From Daucus carota subsp. sativus (lineage: Eukaryota > Streptophyta > Magnoliopsida > Apiales > Apiaceae), in the NCBI RefSeq assembly GCF_001625215.2, contig NC_030385.2:42247598-42311597 (forward strand): a stretch of 64,000 nt of DNA, read 5' to 3'. A model generated the notes under the pieces. The model saw only the letters and a program-made list of their open reading frames with translations. It did no database searches and was not told the DNA's origin. Of the stretch, positions 1,732 to 53,844 are shown one piece after another. The position numbers and the translations under genes were made by a program. Each line of letters opens with the position of its first letter. Within the stretch, counting starts at the first letter, position 1.

Positions 1732-1783
1732 ATAGTTTTGGTGTGCTTGTTGTTGGTGTTAGTCTGCTTGGCACAATTCCGGA

Positions 1784-4313
1784 ATGTTGGAGAAGGACGA
1801 TCCTGCCACCGATGATGGTGCTGGTGGTGCTGGTGACAGTGGTGCTTCTTTTTCTGAGACTTTTCTAGCTCAAGCCCCCCAGAAAACATTTTCACGGTCT
1901 GATTCAAGAACCATGGTACCATCTCATGACCTGGATGGTGGGAATGAAAGTTTGGATCAAAATGATGATAAGGGTGGGGATGGTAGGCTTAATGTCCATT
2001 CGAATCTCAGAACACGGGGACGTATCAGGAGTAAGTCGCATTTGCCGCCCTTGCAGCCACTGACAATTTCTCAGGGACAGTCAAATGTGTGGCCAGGACC
2101 TGGTGCTGATGATGTTAGGAAGTTGCTTCCATGCACACCAGGTGGGAGATATACGAGTGATGGAGGTGAGCGATCAAAACTTGATTTGTCATCTGGTACT
2201 GGTAATCTGGATAAGAATAGTGGGCTTTCTAAGAAAGACAATATTGCTATGTTTGATAAGGAATGTTCCAGGGTTGCAGAACATATTTATCTTGGGGGCA
2301 ACGCAGTTGCCAGAGATAGGGAGATGCTATTAAAGCATGGAATCACCTATATTTTGAACTGTGTTGGTTTCGTCTGTCCAGAATATTTTAAGACAGATTT
2401 CGTGTATTATACTCTGTGGTTACATGATAGCCCCTCAGAAGATATCACTAGCATATTGTATGACGTATTTGATTACTTTGAATATGCGAGGGAACAGCAG
2501 GGACGTGTTTTTGTTCATTGTTGTCAAGGGATCTCTCGTTCACCATCTCTGGTGATTGCTTACCGCATGTGGAGAGAAGGTCAAAGTTTTGATGAAGCAT
2601 TTCAGAATGTTAAGGCAGCTAGGAAAGTTGCTGATCCAAATATGGGTTTTGCATGTCAGCTGTTACAGTGCCAGAAAAGGGTGCATGCTTTTCCTTTGAG
2701 TCCTAATTCGTTACTGAGGATGTACAGGGTTGCTTCTCACTCTTCGTATGATCCGTTGCATCTTGTGCCAAAAATGCTAAATTCTCCTACGCCAGCTGCT
2801 TTGGATTCTAGGGGTGCATTTATTATACATATACCATCTACTATCTATATTTGGATTGGTTTGAAATGTAATACTATCATGGAAAGAGATGCAAGAGCAG
2901 CTGTTTGCCAGATGGTTCGATATGAGAAATTAAAGAAATCCGTTGTAGATATAAAGGAAGGACTTGAACCTTCACACTTCTGGGATGCTTTTTCCACTCT
3001 GCTTCCTCTAATGGAAAAATCCTGCGATGGGGTGGATGTTACTGAGTCATCAAAGAACATTATTCCAGGCGAGAGACAAGTGAGTTCGTACACTGTCGAA
3101 TTTGAGGTATTTCAGAAAGCAGTTGTTGGGGGATTTGTTCCTCCATCTGGAGCATCTGAGACTGACAATGAAACACACCTTCCTGTCAGAGAAAGCTGTT
3201 GGAGTACTCTAAGGCTTAAGCATATCTGTGGCAGCATGGAGGAGTTTGCTTCAGCATCAAAACCATCTTTATCCGGATTCTATCCAGACTCTGGGTCGGA
3301 ACTCCGTGCAGAAAATTGTCCTAACCAAAATCAACTGGTTGTATATAGGTGGCCTGGTTTGGAGAAGATGGTGACATTTAGTTCGGCTGATTTGGACTCC
3401 AAAGATATATTCATCCTTGTCTCAGCTTCAGGCTTAAGAACTTCAATGGAGCATAGGGTTCTCTATTTCTGGGTAGGAAAAAGTTTCAGTAATGATAATG
3501 GAAAGAGGCTATTAAAGGCAGACCATGATATTGGTGTGTTAGAAGAGATTAACTGGAATGAAGTTTGTGTGGATGTGATTAGTAAAATGGGCTTGCCCAA
3601 CGACACTGAGTTCAAGGTACATCCTAGCATCCTTATATCTACTTTATCTTCCAAATGTGTTAAGAAAGTTTTACCCATAATGTTTATAGAATTGTAGAAT
3701 AAGTGGATAGAATACTTATCATACCATATAGGAGGCTTCACCACTATTTACATGTATAGATACTTTACTTGTTTATTTTCTGTTTCTGACAATCTGTGTT
3801 CATTGTTCAAGGAAACTTTTCCTTTGCCTAGATTGATTTCCAGATAATATAACATATCGTCCCTGAGGACAACCAATTCGGCCTTTCACACTCGATGAAT
3901 AATATTATATGACATATTTTGTCTTTCCAGACTTCTCTTTATTTAGCATCTTGACTTTATTCTTAAGAGGAAAGTGCACCCACATCACTTCAATACAGAC
4001 CTGCAGCATACTGCATATATATCATAATTCACAAACATATAACTGGTCTTTTCAAGAATATTTAGAATTTTGTGGATTGGTGAACTGTTTGAGTTCTTAT
4101 TAGAGTTTGTACTGCGTGCATTTGTCTAGCGCTTGCATGACTATATGATTCCTTATTTCTTTTCTCTATTCTTTGATATACATTATATTTGCTGTGAGTT
4201 GCGCTATATGTTCTACATACTGATTGTTTTATGTCTATATTGGATATTGCAATCAGATTGTGAAACAAGATGAAGAACCTGAAGAGTTTCTTGCGCTATT
4301 GGATTCTTTGTAA
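1784..4313 (+). CDS. MKP1: MAP kinase phosphatase 1 (dual-specificity phosphatase with gelsolin-like region)
   Basis: The gene has two coding exons, 1784-3616 and 4257-4313, joined in phase 0 to give 629 residues. The product removes phosphates from threonine and tyrosine of MAP kinases and in plants damps MPK3/MPK6 stress signalling. The dual-specificity phosphatase domain spans roughly residues 155-300 and carries the HCCQGISR signature with catalytic Cys246 and Arg252, followed by SPSLVIAYRMWREGQSF. A gelsolin-like segment (GAFIIHIPSTIYIWIG) starts near residue 344. Reading through the donor would give a longer but unrelated tail; splicing instead adds IVKQDEEPEEFLALLDSL, which matches the family C-terminus. 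The protein is about 150 residues shorter than Arabidopsis MKP1 (784): the Ser-rich linker between the gelsolin-like region and the C-terminal RWPGLEKM segment is nearly absent. The N-terminal FWRSASW-type motif is also degenerate (TFSRSDSRT). All catalytic residues are intact, so it is probably functional. Confidence 0.9.
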
Positions 4314-30000: not shown

Positions 30001-33000
30001 AGGGGAAGGAAAAAAAAAAGAGAAAAGAACAGTCATGCCATATAACTTTAAAATTCAGTATATTAATCTGACTGAACCTGTAGTCTACTGCGACAATTAG
30101 GACAACAATTGTCATATTTGACAGGTTTTTTAATGTATTCAAACATCTACAGCAAGGAAATGAGTGGGGTAACCTTTCCATATATACTATATGGAATTTG
30201 TTGGTACCTTATCATCATGACCTTTTTCCCAAAAAAAAAGCTTAAAAACAGCTGTAGCCACAAACATAGGCACCCATGAGAACATAAAAGGACTTTAAGG
30301 ATAGCAAGAAAGATGTTAAGATTACATTAAAGGATGATTGATATTATTTTCGACTAAAGAGACCGAGACAACTCAAAACTTCGAATAATCATTTATAGGA
30401 AGCCTAAAAGTGTCACACGAGGAAGCTTATAGGCCAACTATTTAACCTAAAGATAAGCGATGTTGCATCTTTCCAGCAACCTATATTTTTACTGTTAAAA
30501 TTTGTATATGCCATGGTACAACAGAGAAAGAAGAGGAGGCATTCGGCATGCTATCTAGTGTCTAGACAAAATTGTTAGGGCGACGGTCAATTCACTCGAA
30601 AACCAGAATATTGGTACAAGATAGTGTAGGAACACAAAAGAACATAGTTAACAGAAAAAATGAACGAAGCAATACAAGCAAACAAATTATGTAAGACATA
30701 CATGTCAATAACAAGTTTTATAAGGACGCTCACGGCAACATCCATCGATGGCTTTCCACTGCTGCTACTTAATTTAGACGTCATGGTCATCAGGTTAGCG
30801 GTCGGAGAAGGTGTTGCTGAGCATACAGCAGCAATGACCTCACACACCTCCACAGAATTTAACTTTAATGGTTGCTGTTCACTGAAATATATATACAAAA
30901 AGAACATATATATATTAGTAGATATAGTCAGATGTAGTATGGAGTTATACCATGGCAACATGGTGACTTTCCTGAAAATGTTTCTTTTATATAAAGCTGC
31001 CCAACTCTTTTTGCCCGGAACATACTATTATTAGGCATCCACACGACAGTAAAATTGATAATGCAAACACTTGCATAACTCCTCATCTATGACACAGAAA
31101 ATAGCATAAATTTAGGAATAACTTATTTACAGTTTAATATATACCTGTAATGGCGGTATTGAAATAGTGGTCGAGGACGTGGGCGGTAAGTGCTCACATG
31201 TGAATCTTCCCTGCAAACAAGTAACATGATTCTCAAATTGTTTATAATAGTTAATAGGGTCAAAGAGGTACTGGGAAAGTGCCTGTGGAGCTGAAGGGAG
31301 AGAATCTATAGTTTAGAATTTGGAACTAAGCTTAGGAACTTTGAAGCTTAGAAATAAATTGTTATGCTTTGGATTTTTTTTCCGAGTTCATACCCTAAGC
31401 ATGCAAGTTTCTAATCAAATCTTCTAATTTCTGAAATCATATGTTGTACAAAAATTACTGGATCCAGCTAGTGTGTAAGTTTTCTTGCCGGGAAATGTAA
31501 ATCAGTATTACATTTTCGGGTTATGTGTAAAAGCGATTTAAAGTAGATTGTTGAGGAGCCTTTGAATGAAGCAAATTAATTTTTGTCCTTATGCGACATC
31601 CTTATTTGGATAGAGATCATTGAGAGTTGTATCTTTAATCCAAGTTTTGGTATCTTCAATGATGGACAAAACCTTTATCACGCTTCCAGCTGTGGCAGTA
31701 TATTTGAGTTTGATTTTTTAATAAATTAATTGATAATGGACAAAGTCACACAGTTCCATAATACCCTACTTCAGCATTAGTACTCGGTGGTAATGCCAGT
31801 ATTAATGCTGAAGTAGGGTATTTTAGATTCGCACATTTAATGACAATACGTCACCAGTTAAGGATATTATTGCCTTGCTAGTTTTGTTTTCAAAATTTTG
31901 TTATTACTGTGTCTAGAGATGCAATATTTCATCCTTAGTGATTTATAGATCGTAATTTATAAGGATTTAAGCCCATACTTAACCTTAATAATTGTAAAAG
32001 CCCAAACATGAAACAGAGGAAACATGCTACCAGTACAAAACCAAGAACTCGAAATGTTATGTTCAAAATATAGAGGCGACGACCACTATTTGCTAAAGGT
32101 TGTACAGTCTAATTTCTTTCGAATTCATGATCATATCCTACTACAAAAAAAAAGTGCAATAGGACAATGTTCTTACTATAGAAAATTGCAATGATCAATA
32201 ATTGTTTCCCCCATTAGGTTACATATGGGGATGAAAGTTTATGAGTTGCCCAACCTCCCAGTACTTGCTTCTTAACAGTTACAAAATTAAACGTATTTTT
32301 CGTAATTCTTAGCTAAAATGGTTTTAAAGCTTATGAAATAGCAAATTCTTAGCTAAAAGGTTTTGGTTTAAAGCCATTAGAGGTCTTATAAAAACCCATG
32401 TAATGTGGAAGGCTTTGAGAAATTTTGTAGAATATGAGAGAAGTGCTCTCACAAGCATTTCTTTACCTCCAACCCCACTCCTTGATTCTTCTTTCTGTAT
32501 TTTGTTACTATTATCTTTCTAGTTCTCTCTCATAACACGCTATATATGCTTTAATCTCTAATTATAGGCAACTTTAAGATTCAAACATATGTAACTCTAA
32601 GTTCCAACATCAACATGAACCAAATTTTCACTTAGCCCGAACATATTCTTGACTGAAAATACATGTCAATATCCCCATATTAGCGTCTTTTAAGGTGGTT
32701 ATTTGTCAGTTGTACTACTGAAAGAATATAAAAAATAGGACAGATAGGAAAGTAATATATTTAACAATGACATTATTAAGTAGTAATTTTCAAAGCAGCA
32801 GGTTTGAGTAGAAAGGACATGCCATATTTGTAGAGAGCCTGTCTTAGAGCGTTTAGATGCTGTTATTGCTCTCATATGGGCACGGGCAGAGGCGGAGTTC
32901 GTTACAGTTGTAAGCAATGAAGTCTGGAGCAATTTATCAAAGTAGGGCATATCAACTGCCCCAAAACTTCTCCAAAGTTCACCCTTCATTTTGGCTTCCA

Positions 33001-38530: not shown

Positions 38531-40570
38531 TCAATAATACCTACGAGACCCGCGATCAAACAATCTTCTGGAAGGGCATTCATATTCTATGTGACCCATT
38601 CCACCACAATTATGGCAGATCATTATGGACACACAGTCACGGGATATGTGACCAGGATGTCCGCAAGTATGGCAGATAATGTCACGGAAAGGCCCTCCAA
38701 ACATTTCTGGTTCTGGCAAACTCCCCTTGGGACATTGGCGAGCCACATGACCCGATATGTAGCATAAGTTGCATACAGGTTCATTGCTACAATCACGGGC
38801 AAGGTGACCAGTTTTGCGGCAGTTGTTGCAAGCTTTCTCATTGGTACAGTGAGCAGCAATGTGGCCTGCCTTGTAGCAGTTATTACAAAGCCTTGAATCA
38901 TAAGTTGGCAAGCTTGGGTGAAAGCAATCACGGGCTAGGTGACCCATCTTGCCACACATATGACAAACTGGATCATTGGGGCATTCACTCGCCAGGTGTC
39001 CTGGTTCTTTACAATTCCAACACATTGTTGTGGAAGTGCACTCAGCAGCAATGTGACTGAGATGAAGAAAAGAGAAAAGAATAAATATTTGAAGAAAGAA
39101 AAGTAATACACATTCTATAATTAACACCATCAAATTAGTATCACACTGATGTTTCCAGTCTTCTATTCCTTTCCTAAATTAGCAGTGGAAACCTCATTAT
39201 GGTTTCCACCGCAATTATTCCCACAAAAGCTATGGACTGTGACAACAGCATGCTTATACCCATTCATGGTGGATAACACTTCAATTTATTATGCAGCTAC
39301 AGAGAATACAGAAACCTAATTTACTGAAAAGCATGGATTACAGTTCCAGAAGGGAGAAGATATGTATACCCGGGAAATCCACAATTGTTGCAAACAGTCA
39401 CATTTGGACAATCTCGAGCGAAATGACCTGGCCGCTTACACTTGTTGCACAAATAATCTTGCCTAGAAGATAAAAGCATCTCTTGTAAGCCAAAACAATT
39501 TAATTTCTTTTAAAAGGCAAATCTCATGTACTTGGGGAGAAGTTTGTAAATCACATATTTAGATCATCAAATGATGCATTTTGCCCTTCATTCAAATCCA
39601 ACACATATTCATCATTTGGAGGACATAAAGAGTGTGCCGAATTAGCATAGGTTTACACCTTATTTAATAGAATAACAAATGCATCTACTTCACACCATCC
39701 TAAAAAATCCTGCTGCCACACTAGAAGAACTATAAGTATCATCAGACTAAGGGTCTCATTGAAGAACAACATATAGTTTTCCTCCAAGTACAACAAAAGA
39801 GTCTTCCCATTTTAAAACATATAATTTACAATAGTTAAAGTTCTACCATAGGCAACAAATTACAATATAATAAGTAATTAAGAATGATGTACATATGTAA
39901 AGCTAAACAAAACGGTGAGTATTAGAGAAAAAATACGATGAAATTGACTTTTACAAGTTGCTAGCTACAAATGCCTAAACTGTCTTATTCATGGAAGGCG
40001 GAACACAAATGCTTAGTAGAAGGATAACAAGTAATCTAAGCAAGCGCCGGGAATGAGATGCAAGACAAGTGTCAGGATTAGCCAGGTATCTCTAGTACAA
40101 GAGACAACTTTATAACTGGTAAGAAACCGATACTAATGCATGAGAAGTCTGCTAAGAAGTCTACTAGAAGTTGCAGGTAGCGATCGAAAAGTTGGCTAAG
40201 AACTATATATACTAGTTCAACTGTAACTTTTATTGTGTTGCTTTCAGATAGGATATATGAGAAGGTTTTTCAGGTTAACTACCACCAAAACTAATCTCTC
40301 TAGTTTCTATCTGCAAATTCAACTAGGCTTTTCTTCGTTTATAGGCTCTGTTCTTTATCAACTTCTCCACATCTTCCTCATACGAATTCTCAACTCAAAT
40401 GCATGCCATGACAGAAACAGAATTGCTAAAGCGAAGAAATAGAAGAATAACAAAAGATTAATATTATGATACCTTCTTTGGTCCCTCCTGTACGGTGCAT
40501 CACGATAGTGCTCTCGATCACGGCTACGGAACCTCCTGGACCGTGGTGAACTTCTCCTGACCGGGCTCAT
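38531..40570 (-). CDS. CNBP/HEXBP-like protein with nine CCHC zinc knuckles
   Basis: Three coding exons, 40473-40570, 39370-39462 and 38531-39056, give 238 residues. The N-terminus is arginine- and serine-rich (MSPVRRSSPRSRRFRSRDRE) and is followed by nine CX2CX4HX4C knuckles, for example CNKCKRPGHFARDC, CWNCKEPGHLASEC and CNNCRKTGHLARDC. The second knuckle is split by intron 2. The protein should bind single-stranded RNA or DNA, like the CNBP/HEXBP family, in cytoplasm or nucleus; its targets cannot be read from sequence. The tail RLFDRGSRRYY matches plant members. I placed the exon 2 acceptor at CTAG/GCAAG because it alone keeps the first knuckle in frame. A 5'UTR intron (40572-41408) precedes the ATG. 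Confidence 0.92.
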
Positions 40571-44267: not shown

Positions 44268-46446
44268 TCAGATCCCTGAAGAACCAGCTTGATGTCCTGC
44301 AAAAGCCACCCATTGCATTTTTTGTTAATTGTTCCAATATCTGCCCTTGTAACTCGACAAAGACAAACATCAAGACAAGAAAACAAGAGGCCCACAGGCC
44401 ACACCTTAACATTATGCATCCTCCCGGAACCAAGTACTTCCATTTCTATACTACTACATCTTTTTAACCTAATATGATATATTTGTTAATTAATTGATTG
44501 CTTTTACCTTGAGTGGACGGCACTGAAGAGTTTCCGTTGGAAGTACGAGCAGCTGCAGGCCAAGATAGGTAAGAGTTGACTATAGACTCAGAGTTTGATA
44601 CCTGCAACAAATTGTTACGCAAATTAAGAAGATATAAAAACTGTCAATTGTACTTATTGTACATCTAGCAACAAGAGCGTTTACTGAATTAACAAGAGTT
44701 GACTATGTACTTATTGTTCATATGTCGGCTGATATCAACCTGACTAACAATGCGTCAAACATTAGCAATCAAATGCCCTATTATAAACATGACCTTAAGA
44801 ATAAAATTCACAGATTATAAATGAGTTTATGAACCTGAAAAAGTTTGCAACCCTAGTTCCCAATAACAGATAGAAACCGACAAAACACATATGATTAGCA
44901 GTTGGAGAATTGTTCTACTAACCAAAAATTACACTGTTGTTTCTTACACTCATACTGCAACTTCAGTTACAACTTACAATAGTAAACATGTTTGCTGTTT
45001 CTTCAAAGCATCTTTAGTGAGGAGTTTAACAAATGTATTTTAAAAGAAAAAGAACCTTTTGTCGCTTTTTTATTATCTTCATAATGATGATCAAAGGGAG
45101 AGACTTGAATTAAATCACCAAAAGCTAGCATTTGAATGCAATAAATTATAGACATGACTCAGAGAAGAAAAAGAATGTAAAGATCAAAATCATTCAATGA
45201 ACCTGACAAACTCTTGCAATCCTTAGTTTACTGTAACAAATAGAAACTGAAAAGCTTATTATATAGCATTTGACAAATTCTAAAGTAGCCAAGAATCACA
45301 CTGTTTCAGCACAAAGTCAACAAATTAACTGATTTTGGAGATTACAACGAGACAAGTGGTACCCAAATAAAATAGAAACAGATGCATCTGTATGATTATT
45401 CTAATTCTAAAAGCAAGCACCTGCAGTAGTTAGAAATAAGACATACATTTTCCAGTAGTTTCAGAATATATTCTTTCTCCTTGTGCAACTGCTGCACCTC
45501 GCAACGAAGATAATCATGTTTCAACAGAAGTAGCCACTTCTCTGCAGATATCTTCACACTCTTAGAATCAGATCTTTGAACTTCCAAAGCAGGAAAAGAT
45601 TCAAGTGAAGCCTGTATAGAAAAGTAAGCACATGTTACCAGTAAAGTATTATAAACCTAACTGTAAGAAGAAGTACTTCTCTAAATATGCATACATATTC
45701 CAGCAGCTTGTTAAGATACTTCTTCTCTCTCAGCAACTCCTGCACCATACCATGAAGGGAATGATTTTCTAAAAGCAGCAGTCTCCCAATTGCAGCCATC
45801 TGCTCATTCAGCAAATTAAACTCACAGGCGATTTTTTTCTTTTTCTCAACAATCCTGTAAAAGGTAGAGGGGCAAAAAGAGCTAGAATAAATCATTTACT
45901 CCTTCCGGTCCTGAAAACTATGAAAAAGATCGAGATTCGAGAACAGAAAAAGGGGGAGAACAGTAAATTTGGAAATTAATTAATGACAAATCAAATTAAT
46001 TTAAGCATGAAAAGTGACCAAGTAGAAACAGTCATCCAACAGTTTGACCTTATTAAAAAGATTTACATGAACTTCGCAAATTATAGTTGATAAACAAACT
46101 CATAAATCATACCAAGCAATGATAGTCATTCCTGAACCAAAAAAACTTTACCTAAACAGACTGAATAACATATACAAAGCAAGGATGGTCATTGTTGAAA
46201 CAAAAACCCTTACCTGCGGGTTTCAAACCAGACATGGATCTGCTGCGAGTCAAGGTTAGAAAGAACAGCATTCTCACGAATCATTGCAATCCTCATATCA
46301 TGACTTGGTTTCTGACACTCCACAAACAATTGCTCAAGAACCGACACCTGATCAGCTGAGTACTGCATAACCTTGTCCCAAATTTCTTGAATCTCGCCAT
46401 TGCATGTGCTATAGTTCCCAAAACCATGATCTCCCTGCATCTCCAT
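44268..46446 (-). CDS. Shortened HD-ZIP III-like homeodomain-leucine zipper protein with altered recognition helix
   Basis: Five coding exons, 46214-46446, 45695-45854, 45447-45611, 44508-44601 and 44268-44296, keep phase and give 226 residues. HD-ZIP III factors are nuclear regulators of vascular and leaf polarity of about 840 residues. Here residues 23-84 form a homeodomain related to that class (YSADQVSVLEQLFVECQKPS, then DSQQIHVWFETRR), followed by a zipper-like helix to about residue 131. The helix-3 core reads WFETRR where nearly all homeodomains have WFQNRR, so Gln50 and Asn51 are replaced by Glu75 and Thr76. The START and MEKHLA domains are absent. Exon 3 holds a second Leu-rich helix (WLLLLKHDYLRCEVQQLHKE) resembling the end of exon 2. 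The tail after residue 186 is Ser-rich. DNA binding is doubtful; a dimerising regulator is one possibility, a decaying gene another. The first ATG in frame was chosen. Confidence 0.75.
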
Positions 46447-48660
46447 TTTGAACCTTAAACTCAAATTTACAGCTACGGAATGGGTGGATATCTAGAGGTA
46501 AAGCTTAAAACTGAAGTAGTAAATTATAAACCAACTGCTGGTTTATATGAAACTGCCTGGTCCTTGTGGATTTCGCTGCTGGTTTTATTAAAGGGGAACG
46601 TGTAACGATAAGATCAAGATTAATTTAGTAAAAAGATTGCTGAAACGGTTGGGAGTTGGGTATGTTACAATTTGTAACAGTCACATTTTGTTGTTTTTTG
46701 TGGGATTGCTAAGCATCAGTAAATTGATTTTGTCTTTTGCTTGTGCCACCACTAAAAATAACAATACAAGGACACCTATATTCGACCCCATCATCTTCTT
46801 GCAGACAGCTGTCAAAACCATGAACAAAGAGTAAACTAGACTAGAAACACTTCAATTTCCATACAACTTCTATCAAATTTTCTTTAACACAACCTTGGCA
46901 GCTAGAAATAAAACCCAGGTTTAATCATGCTTCTAGTAATTAAGAAGGAAAAATGTAGAAACACACACAGTTTCCACCGCCTGTCCAGGGTTGAGCCCTG
47001 CGGACTTAAACACACATAATCAAAACAAAACCCCAAACACTATTGTTGTGTTGTGTGTTTGTTGTTTGGTTGAAGTAAATGAAATGAAATTTGTACTATT
47101 AAATGTGTAAACCTAGCCAAATGGAGCATACATGAAGGAATCATTCATGATTGTCAGTCATTAATCCATTCTATTCTTAGCAAATTAAACTAGAGTTCAA
47201 ACCTACCAATTGAAGAAGTGACCTTACTTCTACATCCTATTCTTTTCTCCACAGTTCTCTTCATAAATTTTGAACCCTTAATTTTTTTCCACTCTTCCCA
47301 TCTACCTTTATTTTCATCCTTGAATTTTGTCCATGATTTCATTCCATTCCATTTCCCCCAACCAAACAAAGTATATATTTTTTGCTTCACTGCATACTGC
47401 AGTACAGCTAAAAGTGGTTGTATTGTTTAGCAAAGGCAACTAATAAGGAACAAGATAAACTGAACATATAGTCGAGCCAAATACTCCTTTAACTTATTAT
47501 TAATTGAAGGAGATTTGGTCCGTAATATGATCACCGCTGACAAATTCAAATAATAAGTCCATGCCTATAGTTTTAATAATCCGAAGTTTATCTAAAGTAT
47601 TTGCTTTTTTACTTCTTTGCAATGTGATTTCTTCATACAAAATATAAAAACCTGTTAAGCGACCATATCAACTAAAACCTCAAGGTGCCAGGAAAAGGCC
47701 TTTTATTATGTTCTAAAATTCCCGTCACCGTCATTTTTGGGTTGAAGAGTGGATCACATTCGCCCATCTTCCAAGCCATAACTTTGTTTTCATGTACATG
47801 ATAAATTATGAGTTGTGATACTATTTTTAAGCGACAAGTTGACTTCAAACCCTAGGGAAAAACTTTTTTTACCTGGATCATCGTATTCTAACAAATCAAA
47901 TGATAATTATAACAAAATTGTGTGCAGGAAAATCACCAGTAACAATTACCAATTTATTCTTCGCGAAAGAGCAATCTGTAAGGACTGCTTCAAGAAGCAT
48001 AATTCTCAGAGCCTCATAATTTCTTGGAAATCAAGATCATACCAGGCTGATCGTTGTTATGAAGCTACAAAGGATGAGAGAGCATACGAGGGAGATGATA
48101 GAGACATTCAAGATCGAGTACAGATATTGATAAACACAGATTCACAGCGACCGAAGAACACAGCAATCAATTGCGACACAAACAGAGATCAAGATCGAGG
48201 GATCACAAACTCAAATACACAATTGAAACACAGATCAAAAGCAAAACGATCACGAATCCACAATCCATTTTTTAACTGCTTGCAAAATTAAGATGATCAG
48301 AATTAAGATAATTGATTATTATTTAAATTCCATTTTTTAAGTGCTTGCAAAATTAGTCGTAAAAAACGGAAATCAGACTTAACAAAGATTAATCTGAAGA
48401 TTAATTGAATTGAATTGATCAGGAATTAATCGGATTAATCGAAGATTTAATCAATTTAGCAAGTTGCAGAACAAAAATTTGATTAATTACTGATTTTTAG
48501 AACATAGATTTTAACGATATATTCTTGATCAATTAAATCTTTGGTACCCTTCAACATCCGTACTCTCAAAATTTCCAGTTTCCTTTCTTCAGAAGAGGCG
48601 AAAAGATAGGTTGTGGACTTGGAGAGAGTTTTTTACTTTGGAATTTTTACAAAGGATAAC
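46447..48660. other. Spacer between the homeodomain gene and the foldback region
   Basis: This contains the upstream region of the homeodomain gene and AT-rich sequence. A 158-codon frame at 47815-48291 has no recognisable domain, is low in hydrophobic patterning and sits in biased sequence, so I do not call it. A 30-base direct repeat (CCATTTTTTAACTGCTTGCA and neighbours) occurs near 48262 and 48330. Confidence 0.4.
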
Positions 48661-48662
48661 GG

Positions 48663-48686
48663 TCCACAGCAATCGATTGCTGTGGA
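48663..48686. repeat. Perfect 24-bp palindrome
   Basis: TCCACAGCAATC is followed immediately by its reverse complement, GATTGCTGTGGA. It lies just outside the larger foldback structure. Confidence 0.9.
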
Positions 48687-48694
48687 GGAGTTAA

Positions 48695-48913
48695 TAACAC
48701 TCAGTTTCTGGGCCGTTGGATGCATATCCAGCGGCCAAGATCATATTAAAATTTTAATATGTCCAGCGTTTTTTTAGCGCTGGTCGGGGATTATCATGTT
48801 CCGCTGTACATGGGAATCCCCGTCCAGCGCTAAAAAAGCGCTGGACATATTAAAATTTTAATATGATCCTGGCCGCTGGATATGCATCCAACGGCTCAAA
48901 AACTGTGAGTTTT
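48695..48913. mobile_element. Foldback element with long, internally palindromic arms
   Basis: The left arm (about 48695-48782) and right arm (about 48822-48913) are near-perfect inverse copies. They contain GGCCGTTGGATGCATATCCA, the palindrome ATATTAAAATTTTAATAT and an AGCGCT block. Between them CGGGGATT and AATCCCCG form an inner stem. No coding sequence is present. The layout resembles a foldback or Mutator-like non-autonomous element, but no target duplication was identified. Confidence 0.65.
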
Positions 48914-48922
48914 TTAACCAGT

Positions 48923-49013
48923 GCCTGGCAGTGGACATATTAAAATTTTAATATGATCCTGGCCGCTGGATATGCATACAACGGCTCAAAAACTGTGAGT
49001 TTTTTAACCAGTA
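48923..49013. repeat. Tandem extra copy of the foldback right arm
   Basis: The sequence from GGACATATTAAAATTTTAAT through TTTTTTAACCAGT repeats the right arm (48843-48922) with few changes, in the same orientation. Confidence 0.8.
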
Positions 49014-52267: not shown

Positions 52268-52798
52268 TTACATCATCTCCTGTGAGCGTCTGACACAACG
52301 GGCAACTCTCTTCTTGAAATCAGCCCTTCGTTCCCTCCATTCAATAGCAGCTTCCACATTGGCCGGAGATTCATCATTAGGGCTCGACAACAATGATATA
52401 ATACTCAAGAGTATGCTCTCCACTGTATGTACAGGGTTCCAGCGCTCGGTGGCAGACTCATAGCCAAGAGGATCATCCCCGGGTGAGTGAAGTATCGAGA
52501 TGCAAACTTTTCCATCCTCGTAAATATTGGGATGCCATATCTCTGAAGTAAACCTCACAGTCGGAGGGTTGCAGGGGTAATCTTCTGGGAACGTCATAAC
52601 AGCATTGAAGAAACCTTCTTGATATAATGTACCCGGTGGCCCCATAATCGTGACACTCCATTCGAAGATGTTTGTTTCATCTATTAAGCCAGCAGAGAAT
52701 CCGTCTACCGGGTTTCTGCAGAGATCTTTCAGCTGTTTCTGGAGAAGAAGGTTTGCCTGTGATGACGAAGCTGTGTTATTTTCTTTTGATGAAGCCAT
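52268..52798 (-). CDS. Intronless E2 ubiquitin-conjugating enzyme (UBC7/UBE2G-type), probable retrocopy
   Basis: A single uninterrupted frame of 176 residues encodes a full E2 fold. The HPN motif ([19 protein letters not shown]) places the catalytic cysteine at residue 99, and the extra loop SPGDDPLGYESATERWNP is typical of the UBC7/UBE2G class, which works with endoplasmic reticulum quality-control E3 ligases. The six-exon relative at 55146-57928 on the same strand is closely similar throughout, ending RRSQEMM in both, but this copy lacks all five introns and has about eight extra N-terminal residues (ASSKENNTASSS). That pattern suggests retroposition or cDNA-mediated loss of introns. The reading frame and key residues are intact, so it may be functional. 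Confidence 0.92.
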   Translation of the reverse strand: MASSKENNTASSSQANLLLQKQLKDLCRNPVDGFSAGLIDETNIFEWSVTIMGPPGTLYQEGFFNAVMTFPEDYPCNPPTVRFTSEIWHPNIYEDGKVCISILHSPGDDPLGYESATERWNPVHTVESILLSIISLLSSPNDESPANVEAAIEWRERRADFKKRVARCVRRSQEMM

Positions 52799-53844
52799 GT
52801 TGATGATGATTCTCTCTGAGAAAACTTGAAAAACTTTAACAATGAACTATTCTACGGGAGTTTATATAGAGAAAGATGTAACCTAAATTAAATTGGATAT
52901 TAGCAAAGATTGATACAGAATTCGAATGGGAACAGAATCACCAAAGGATAAAACTCTGAGGAAACTGTATAGATACGTTTCTGAATTTCCCCATTAGGTA
53001 GGAATCTTACTTCATTAACAATACAAAATAAAAACCAATTCAGTGTCTGAATAATGGTTGGCTTCATTAGTCAATACTCCATTACCACGGAACAAAAACA
53101 ATGTTTGACCGACTTTCAAGAAATTGGTTTTGCACAGATAATATATAATGAAGTTCGTGACAATATCTATATTTTCAAACTTATTTTTTGAAATATGGTT
53201 GAATTTGTAATTGAGTTTGTAACGTAATTGATTTACCGTTGATTTTCAGATTATTACGTTGGAGATTGAATTTTTAGATTGTAATATAATTGATTTTCAG
53301 ATTAGTATGTTGGAGGTTGCAAACGAGATTGGATCTTATTTTTAAAAATAATTTTTATAATTCAAATATTTTTGGAAAAAAACCACCGATATGTTTCTCC
53401 CCGTGGCAAACACTTCCAAATTTTTGGTATTGAGGTATTCCGTACCCATGCTTTTAGAACAACTAGTTGAGAATCCGCGCGTTGCAGCAGCCTATAAAAA
53501 TTATATTAATGATTCAATATTAATATTTGTATCATAAAATAATTTTGTGATTGTCTATAAAAATTATATTAACATTTCAAAATTAATATCTTGTAGGATA
53601 AAATAAATTTATATTATAAAAATTTTGATGTAATATCAATACTAATATATAAAATTGAAAAATTGGACTATAATTCATGGTGAAAAAATGAAAATAAATT
53701 TATACATGTAATTAACAATTTAAAACACCGACGAATTTTAATTTTATTTGTGTTTTTTTAAAGTAATTATGTTCATACATTGTCACCTTCCGCCAATTTT
53801 TTTGGCTTGATTGTGCACAAAAACATCTAACTTAAATCCCTGAG

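Follow-up and report, generated by a model that had tools for sequence, protein, structure and literature searches.

Is a homeodomain gene whose recognition helix reads WFETRR where WFQNRR is the rule still a working gene, and if so, what might its product do? The question is raised by a gene (hereafter the window gene) in the window, by which we mean the whole 64,000-nucleotide stretch of carrot DNA that was analysed (G000:C5:42247598-42311597, from an assembly of 441,086,747 bases in 11 contigs). The original prediction of a WFETRR homeodomain with Glu50-Thr51 was confirmed by the sequence of exon 1 and by the Pfam score, which at 33.9 bits for PF00046 passes the gathering cut-off of 22.9. 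The two residues are Glu75 and Thr76 of the protein, which we take to be homeodomain positions 50 and 51. To our knowledge Asn51 is near-invariant among DNA-binding homeodomains; it is present in all nine HD-ZIP III-type exons read in this genome, and WFQNRR was found in 9/9 other homeodomain loci examined (L001-L008, the best 8 of 113 homeodomain matches, and L028). The matches of the window gene to solved structures were weak (best E = 0.055) and were homeodomains.

The gene was proposed to carry a 226-residue frame over five exons, a proposal that stands in part: the frame, as read from the sequence, is open and all four introns are GT-AG, whereas exons 4 and 5 receive no support from relatives (Table 1). 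Exons 1-3 are free of stops, frameshifts and broken splice sites and have counterparts elsewhere in the genome. The first of them ends in ...SNLDSQQIHVWFETR(R), its last Arg codon (Arg53) being split by the intron. A whole-protein genome search, in which 43 candidates were scored, returned no counterpart of exon 4 outside the window, and none of exon 5 was found in the genome search; the C-terminus is therefore unsure, and the supported exons are those of the homeodomain and the zippers. That exon 4 corresponds to exon 3 of canonical HD-ZIP III genes was rejected, the similarity being insignificant (shuffle p = 0.6).

Table 1. Features of the window gene and other matches in the window (window positions)
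Feature	Position	Strand	Description
Exon 1	46446-46214	-	Start codon, N-terminal tail and homeodomain with recognition helix QQIHVWFETRR; intron placed and phased as in canonical HD-ZIP III
Exon 2	45854-45695	-	First leucine zipper in canonical register; 6/6 d positions hydrophobic (F M L L L L)
Exon 3	45611-45447	-	Second zipper-like segment, exon 2-like; 5/6 d positions hydrophobic
Exon 4	44601-44508	-	Putative; without support from relatives
Exon 5	44296-44268	-	Putative short last exon with stop codon; without support from relatives; no START-domain similarity found
Upstream region	46633-46870	-	72% alike to DNA upstream of L044 over 238 bases
Dual-specificity phosphatase with gelsolin repeat	1763-3697	+	Pfam match
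Protein with five zinc-knuckle (CCHC) stretches	38531-39178	-	Pfam match
Ubiquitin-conjugating enzyme	52268-52846	-	Pfam match

The earlier assignment of the gene to HD-ZIP III fits its nearest relatives and its intron. A genome search with the protein returned the window gene itself, relatives at C4:30.56-30.65 Mb and then nine HD-ZIP III-type homeodomain exons (E = 5e-11 to 3e-8), other homeodomain exons standing at E = 0.018 or worse; the best matches outside the five-gene group described below are thus HD-ZIP III exons. Exon 2 was found for seven of the nine, and in all seven an intron interrupts the Arg53 codon and the locus also matches MEKHLA; these canonical loci we take, by name, to be the REVOLUTA/PHABULOSA/CORONA class (HD-ZIP III) of this genome. 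The recognition-helix intron is identical in place and phase in the window gene and in these seven. Likewise, the homeodomain of the window gene has, as in HD-ZIP III, four extra residues between its ends relative to the Pfam model, and a zipper follows it directly in the same register. Identity to canonical HD-ZIP III homeodomains is at best 26/54, and in a tree of nine canonical and five derived sequences the two sets split at 100/100, the derived set showing strong divergence on a long stem branch; within it, a three-member cluster (L045-L047) is the one branching that is resolved.

Two HD-ZIP III-type loci deserve separate mention. At L048 (3724-3885; C3:37.90 Mb) the exon carries WFKNRK and has no GT at the usual donor, and the fetched 10 kb yielded no exon 2 and one weak START match (E = 0.42); judged by these features it is probably a partial pseudogene. 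The homeodomain exon of L049 (7153-6992; C5:4.21 Mb) encodes the same protein as that of L050 over 54 residues, and exon 2 and a credible START match were not found in its fetched 10 kb. Regarding a neighbourhood common to the C5 and C4 loci, one neighbouring gene was tried, which has its relatives on C6 and C7 rather than C4.

The window gene is not a full HD-ZIP III gene, as neither START nor MEKHLA was found. A START domain hidden downstream of it was rejected: of 11 canonical pieces (from L053) none matched the window credibly, the single hit (32254-32307, E = 0.44) being at chance level, while all 11 were found in the control locus L050. Similarly, 0/11 pieces were credible in the 9-10 kb fetched for each of L044-L047. 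Among 20 genome matches to MEKHLA (PF08670) none lies in the window and none on contig C4. The miR165/166 target site spans an exon junction in HD-ZIP III genes (compare the exon break in L053), so that the lack of any match in the window DNA at up to three mismatches to the site sequence is a weak test. Unlike HD-ZIP III, then, the window gene shows no START piece or MEKHLA match, has lost basic residues and Asn51 and carries a second zipper-like exon, for which a search of the canonical loci found no equivalent.

The gene is not alone. At least four further open relatives, L044, L045, L046 and L047, all lie on contig C4 with exons 1-3 open in each, and a genome search with the L047 type returned no additional members at E <= 1. 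Their recognition helices read WFENRR (L044), WFKKIR (L045 and L046) and WFTKIR (L047), so that Asn51, replaced by Thr in the window gene, is kept in one of the five (L044). The expectation that Glu-Thr would be conserved at positions 50-51 thus fails within this genome, as the ET of the window gene is EN in its closest relative, L044, and KK, KK and TK in L045, L046 and L047, respectively. None of the five genes has lost Arg53 or W48-F49. The window gene and L044 share Glu50 and their exon structure and, together with their identity, this suggests that they are sisters, a point that the tree does not settle; if they are, Asn51 would most simply have been lost twice. The DNA upstream of the two genes, which is alike (Table 1), is possibly a shared promoter. 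The unit of interest is the five-gene group rather than a single odd gene. At L046 we also observed, just upstream of the intact exon 1, a broken second copy of this C4-type exon (6904-6752), whose match stops before the recognition helix and is followed by a stop codon.

The strongest evidence on the nature of these proteins is the contrast between the homeodomain core and its DNA-facing surface. We defined the core as the 15 homeodomain positions that are hydrophobic in all eight canonical exons used (L048 left out). All 15 remain hydrophobic in the window gene, L045, L046 and L047, and 14/15 in L044. When the window gene, L044 and L046 were simulated neutrally to the same identity (400 runs each), a mean of 10.2, 9.2 and 8.8 core positions, respectively, stayed hydrophobic, and the observed count was reached in 0/400, 1/400 and 0/400 runs; the test spans the whole history since the split from the canonical genes, not recent time. 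Of 11 conserved basic positions, by comparison, 6 are retained in the window gene, 4 in L044, 2 in L045 and 3 each in L046 and L047, a loss at about the level of drift, the neutral expectation being 6.2, 5.2 and 5.0 for the window gene, L044 and L046. The net charge of the homeodomain, +5 or +6 in seven distinct canonical sequences (L048 included), is -1 in the window gene, -2 in L044 and L046 and -3 in L045 and L047; as charges this low arose in 23/400, 18/400 and 16/400 neutral runs for the window gene, L044 and L046, the negative charge, taken by itself, lies within reach of drift. The main result is that the hydrophobic core has been held and the DNA-facing charge released, which is also true of L044 even though it keeps Asn51.

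It is conceivable that these are DNA-binding factors of changed specificity, in which Glu50-Thr51 (K-K and T-K in relatives) would read other sequences, with contact through Arg53 and the zipper. Arg53 and W48-F49, kept throughout the group, and a recognition helix that varies around a constant core would agree with this, whereas the net charge is negative in 5/5 homeodomains, 5 to 9 of the 11 conserved basic positions are lost and the Asn51 of DNA-binding homeodomains is, as far as we know, near-invariant; we consider such a role improbable.

The zippers were examined in registers anchored on matching Leu, and the p values for the d positions are uncorrected for that choice. In exon 2 the d positions are hydrophobic in 6/6 cases in the window gene (permutation p = 0.0014), 5/5 in L044 (p = 0.01) and 5/6 in each gene of the cluster (p = 0.03-0.04). 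The corresponding values for exon 3 are 5/6 in the window gene (p = 0.008), 5/7 in L044 (p = 0.01) and 4/6 in each of the cluster genes (p = 0.08-0.11). The a/d core of the window gene has kept its class at 9/11 positions as compared to 10/29 elsewhere (p = 0.009). The two zipper exons resemble each other in the window gene (score 63; mean 24.7 and maximum 51 in 1000 shuffles) and in L044 (score 64; shuffled maximum 35), and the likeness is weak in the cluster (p = 0.019 for L046, 0.18 for L045 and 0.16 for L047). Where class III zippers have N N N V N at their a positions the window gene has N G N V K, keeping three of five with changes of N to G and N to K, and pairing with HD-ZIP III partners is consequently not assured.

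These changes bear on a further alternative, that of a homeodomain-zipper protein that folds and has taken on a new role outside HD-ZIP III regulation, such as the binding of other proteins or of RNA. The long stem branch with its strong divergence, the second zipper-like exon and the two altered a residues would all suit such a protein, yet the zipper register and three of the five a positions are kept and nothing positive points to another partner, and we regard this alternative as quite unlikely. The original prediction of a dimer-only regulator fits the data and is partly supported: conservation in the zipper favours its core, and the losses extend beyond Asn51 to basic residues in 5/5 genes. 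Folding, dimerisation and antagonism are what we infer.

Whether the window gene itself has remained under selection is less clear. Selection is supported over the five genes together, with a one-ratio omega of 0.48 (p = 7e-6 against 1), and the pair of the window gene and L044 gives 0.40 (p = 1e-4; dS 0.87, dN 0.34), or by exon 0.37 for exon 1, 0.18 for exon 2 (where dS, at 2.95, is near saturation) and 0.51 for exon 3 (p = 0.08). Omega is 0.30 on the branch of L044 (p = 0.001), 0.55 on that of the cluster (p = 0.10) and 0.58 on that of the window gene (p = 0.38 against 1), and a model with four omegas does not improve the fit over a single one (p = 0.40). Along the branch of the window gene the homeodomain alone shows no sign of constraint, its omega being 2.96 (p = 0.71 against 1). 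A dN/dS below 1, proposed earlier as a check of a kept function, is thus seen for the group and for the pair and not for the gene's own branch, where omega is indistinguishable from 1; this lack of a branch-specific signal belongs to the weakest point of the case.

The introns add a further caution. Between the window gene and L044, identity is 81% in intron 2 (window 45612-45694) and 66% in the exon 3 that follows, indicating that the exons beside this intron changed faster than the intron itself. Accordingly, synonymous divergence may overstate neutral divergence, the dN of the pair (0.34) exceeding the difference in intron 2 (~0.19). The cause may lie in positive selection on the zippers, in gene conversion or in constraint on the intron. 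Intron 1 has an identity of 0.66 compared to 0.65 when shuffled, and an alignment score of 165.5 compared to 117.9 (sd 9.2). As proof of selection on the window gene in its own right, the pairwise dN/dS is weakened both by the branch model and by the comparison of intron 2.

The above raises the alternative of a young pseudogene. The group would long have been functional, and the window gene would be a copy that lost constraint recently, its Glu-Thr being a sign of decay in a frame not yet broken. The omega on its branch and that of its homeodomain, the Asn51 kept in L044, the broken extra copy at L046 and the unsupported exons 4-5 would all be in line with such decay. In opposition to it, exons 1-3 are intact, as are 15/15 core and 6/6 zipper d positions, and the upstream DNA is common to the window gene and L044. 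In addition, the neutral probability that 217 codons (31 of them from the unsupported exon 4) stay open is 0.071, 0.025 and 0.0095 at 0.1, 0.15 and 0.2 substitutions per site, and as the branch of the window gene measures about 0.17-0.19 per site (one third of the branch length), neutral change along all of it would leave the frame open in about 1-2.5% of cases. We view the pseudogene as unlikely, though a serious contender.

The explanation that we favour, while granting it somewhat less than an even chance, is that the window gene belongs to a group of at least five open HD-ZIP III-derived genes encoding proteins that would dimerise, probably without normal DNA binding, and that perhaps antagonise HD-ZIP III. 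Its basis in the sequences is that the homeodomain core and zipper core are kept, basic residues are reduced, START was not found, Asn51 is lost in four of the five and two of them, the window gene and L044, carry a second zipper-like exon. The proteins would fold and dimerise via the zipper or zippers, would not bind HD-ZIP III sites normally and could form mixed dimers with full HD-ZIP III proteins, and these dimers would bind DNA more weakly. They might thus serve as dominant brakes with a dead homeodomain, functionally like LITTLE ZIPPER (ZPR) proteins or HOPX.

ZPRs are reported, by Floyd et al. in 2014, to descend from HD-ZIP III. Like the window gene they are proteins without START and with a zipper; the zipper is their only recognisable domain (PMC3794426), and they bind REVOLUTA and inhibit its binding to DNA (PMC3794426, PMC6412583). 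In contrast, the window gene encodes a homeodomain and, in a further exon, a second zipper-like segment; because of its homeodomain it is not a LITTLE ZIPPER and at best works like one. The homeodomain-like domain of HOPX (homeodomain-only protein) of animals is without residues required for DNA binding, and the protein, which does not bind DNA, antagonises the transcription factor SRF (PMC3876040). The absence of DNA-binding residues is what the window gene would share with it, as judged by sequence; HOPX comes from an unrelated lineage, has 73 amino acids and targets SRF rather than its own parent family. A truncated ATHB17 (delta113), an HD-Zip II protein expressed in maize, is described as dominant negative and as forming heterodimers (PMC3988052). 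The window gene may resemble it as a truncated HD-Zip with dominant-negative action, whereas ATHB17 delta113 is a transgene product of class II that still binds DNA and lacks a repression domain, not DNA contacts.

Among the papers listed on carrot or Apiaceae HD-ZIP, START-less HD-ZIP III, Asn-less homeodomains and dominant-negative HD-Zip, none describes this gene group in its title or in the opening lines of its abstract. It is conceivable, though less likely than not, that the group represents an independent multi-gene set of HD-ZIP III inhibitors in a plant lineage: a folded homeodomain of inverted charge that does not bind DNA would be combined with two zippers, and the genes would have multiplied in a cluster and would still be diversifying; this would be a LITTLE ZIPPER-like origin at an intermediate stage, the homeodomain being kept as a scaffold. 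HD-ZIP III proteins control leaf polarity, meristems and vascular tissue. If this reading of the group is true, the HD-ZIP III family would repeatedly yield its own inhibitors, here through a second, parallel set of brakes, and the group would show how a transcription factor loses DNA binding and yet keeps its fold, in a crop that relies on vascular growth for its root.

Elsewhere in the window, ten open frames were scanned against Pfam and three of them match (Table 1). A palindromic MITE-like repeat at 48652-48931 has dozens of copies, 76-90% alike, genome-wide and on both strands, a lower bound given that 40 of 2657 candidates were scored.
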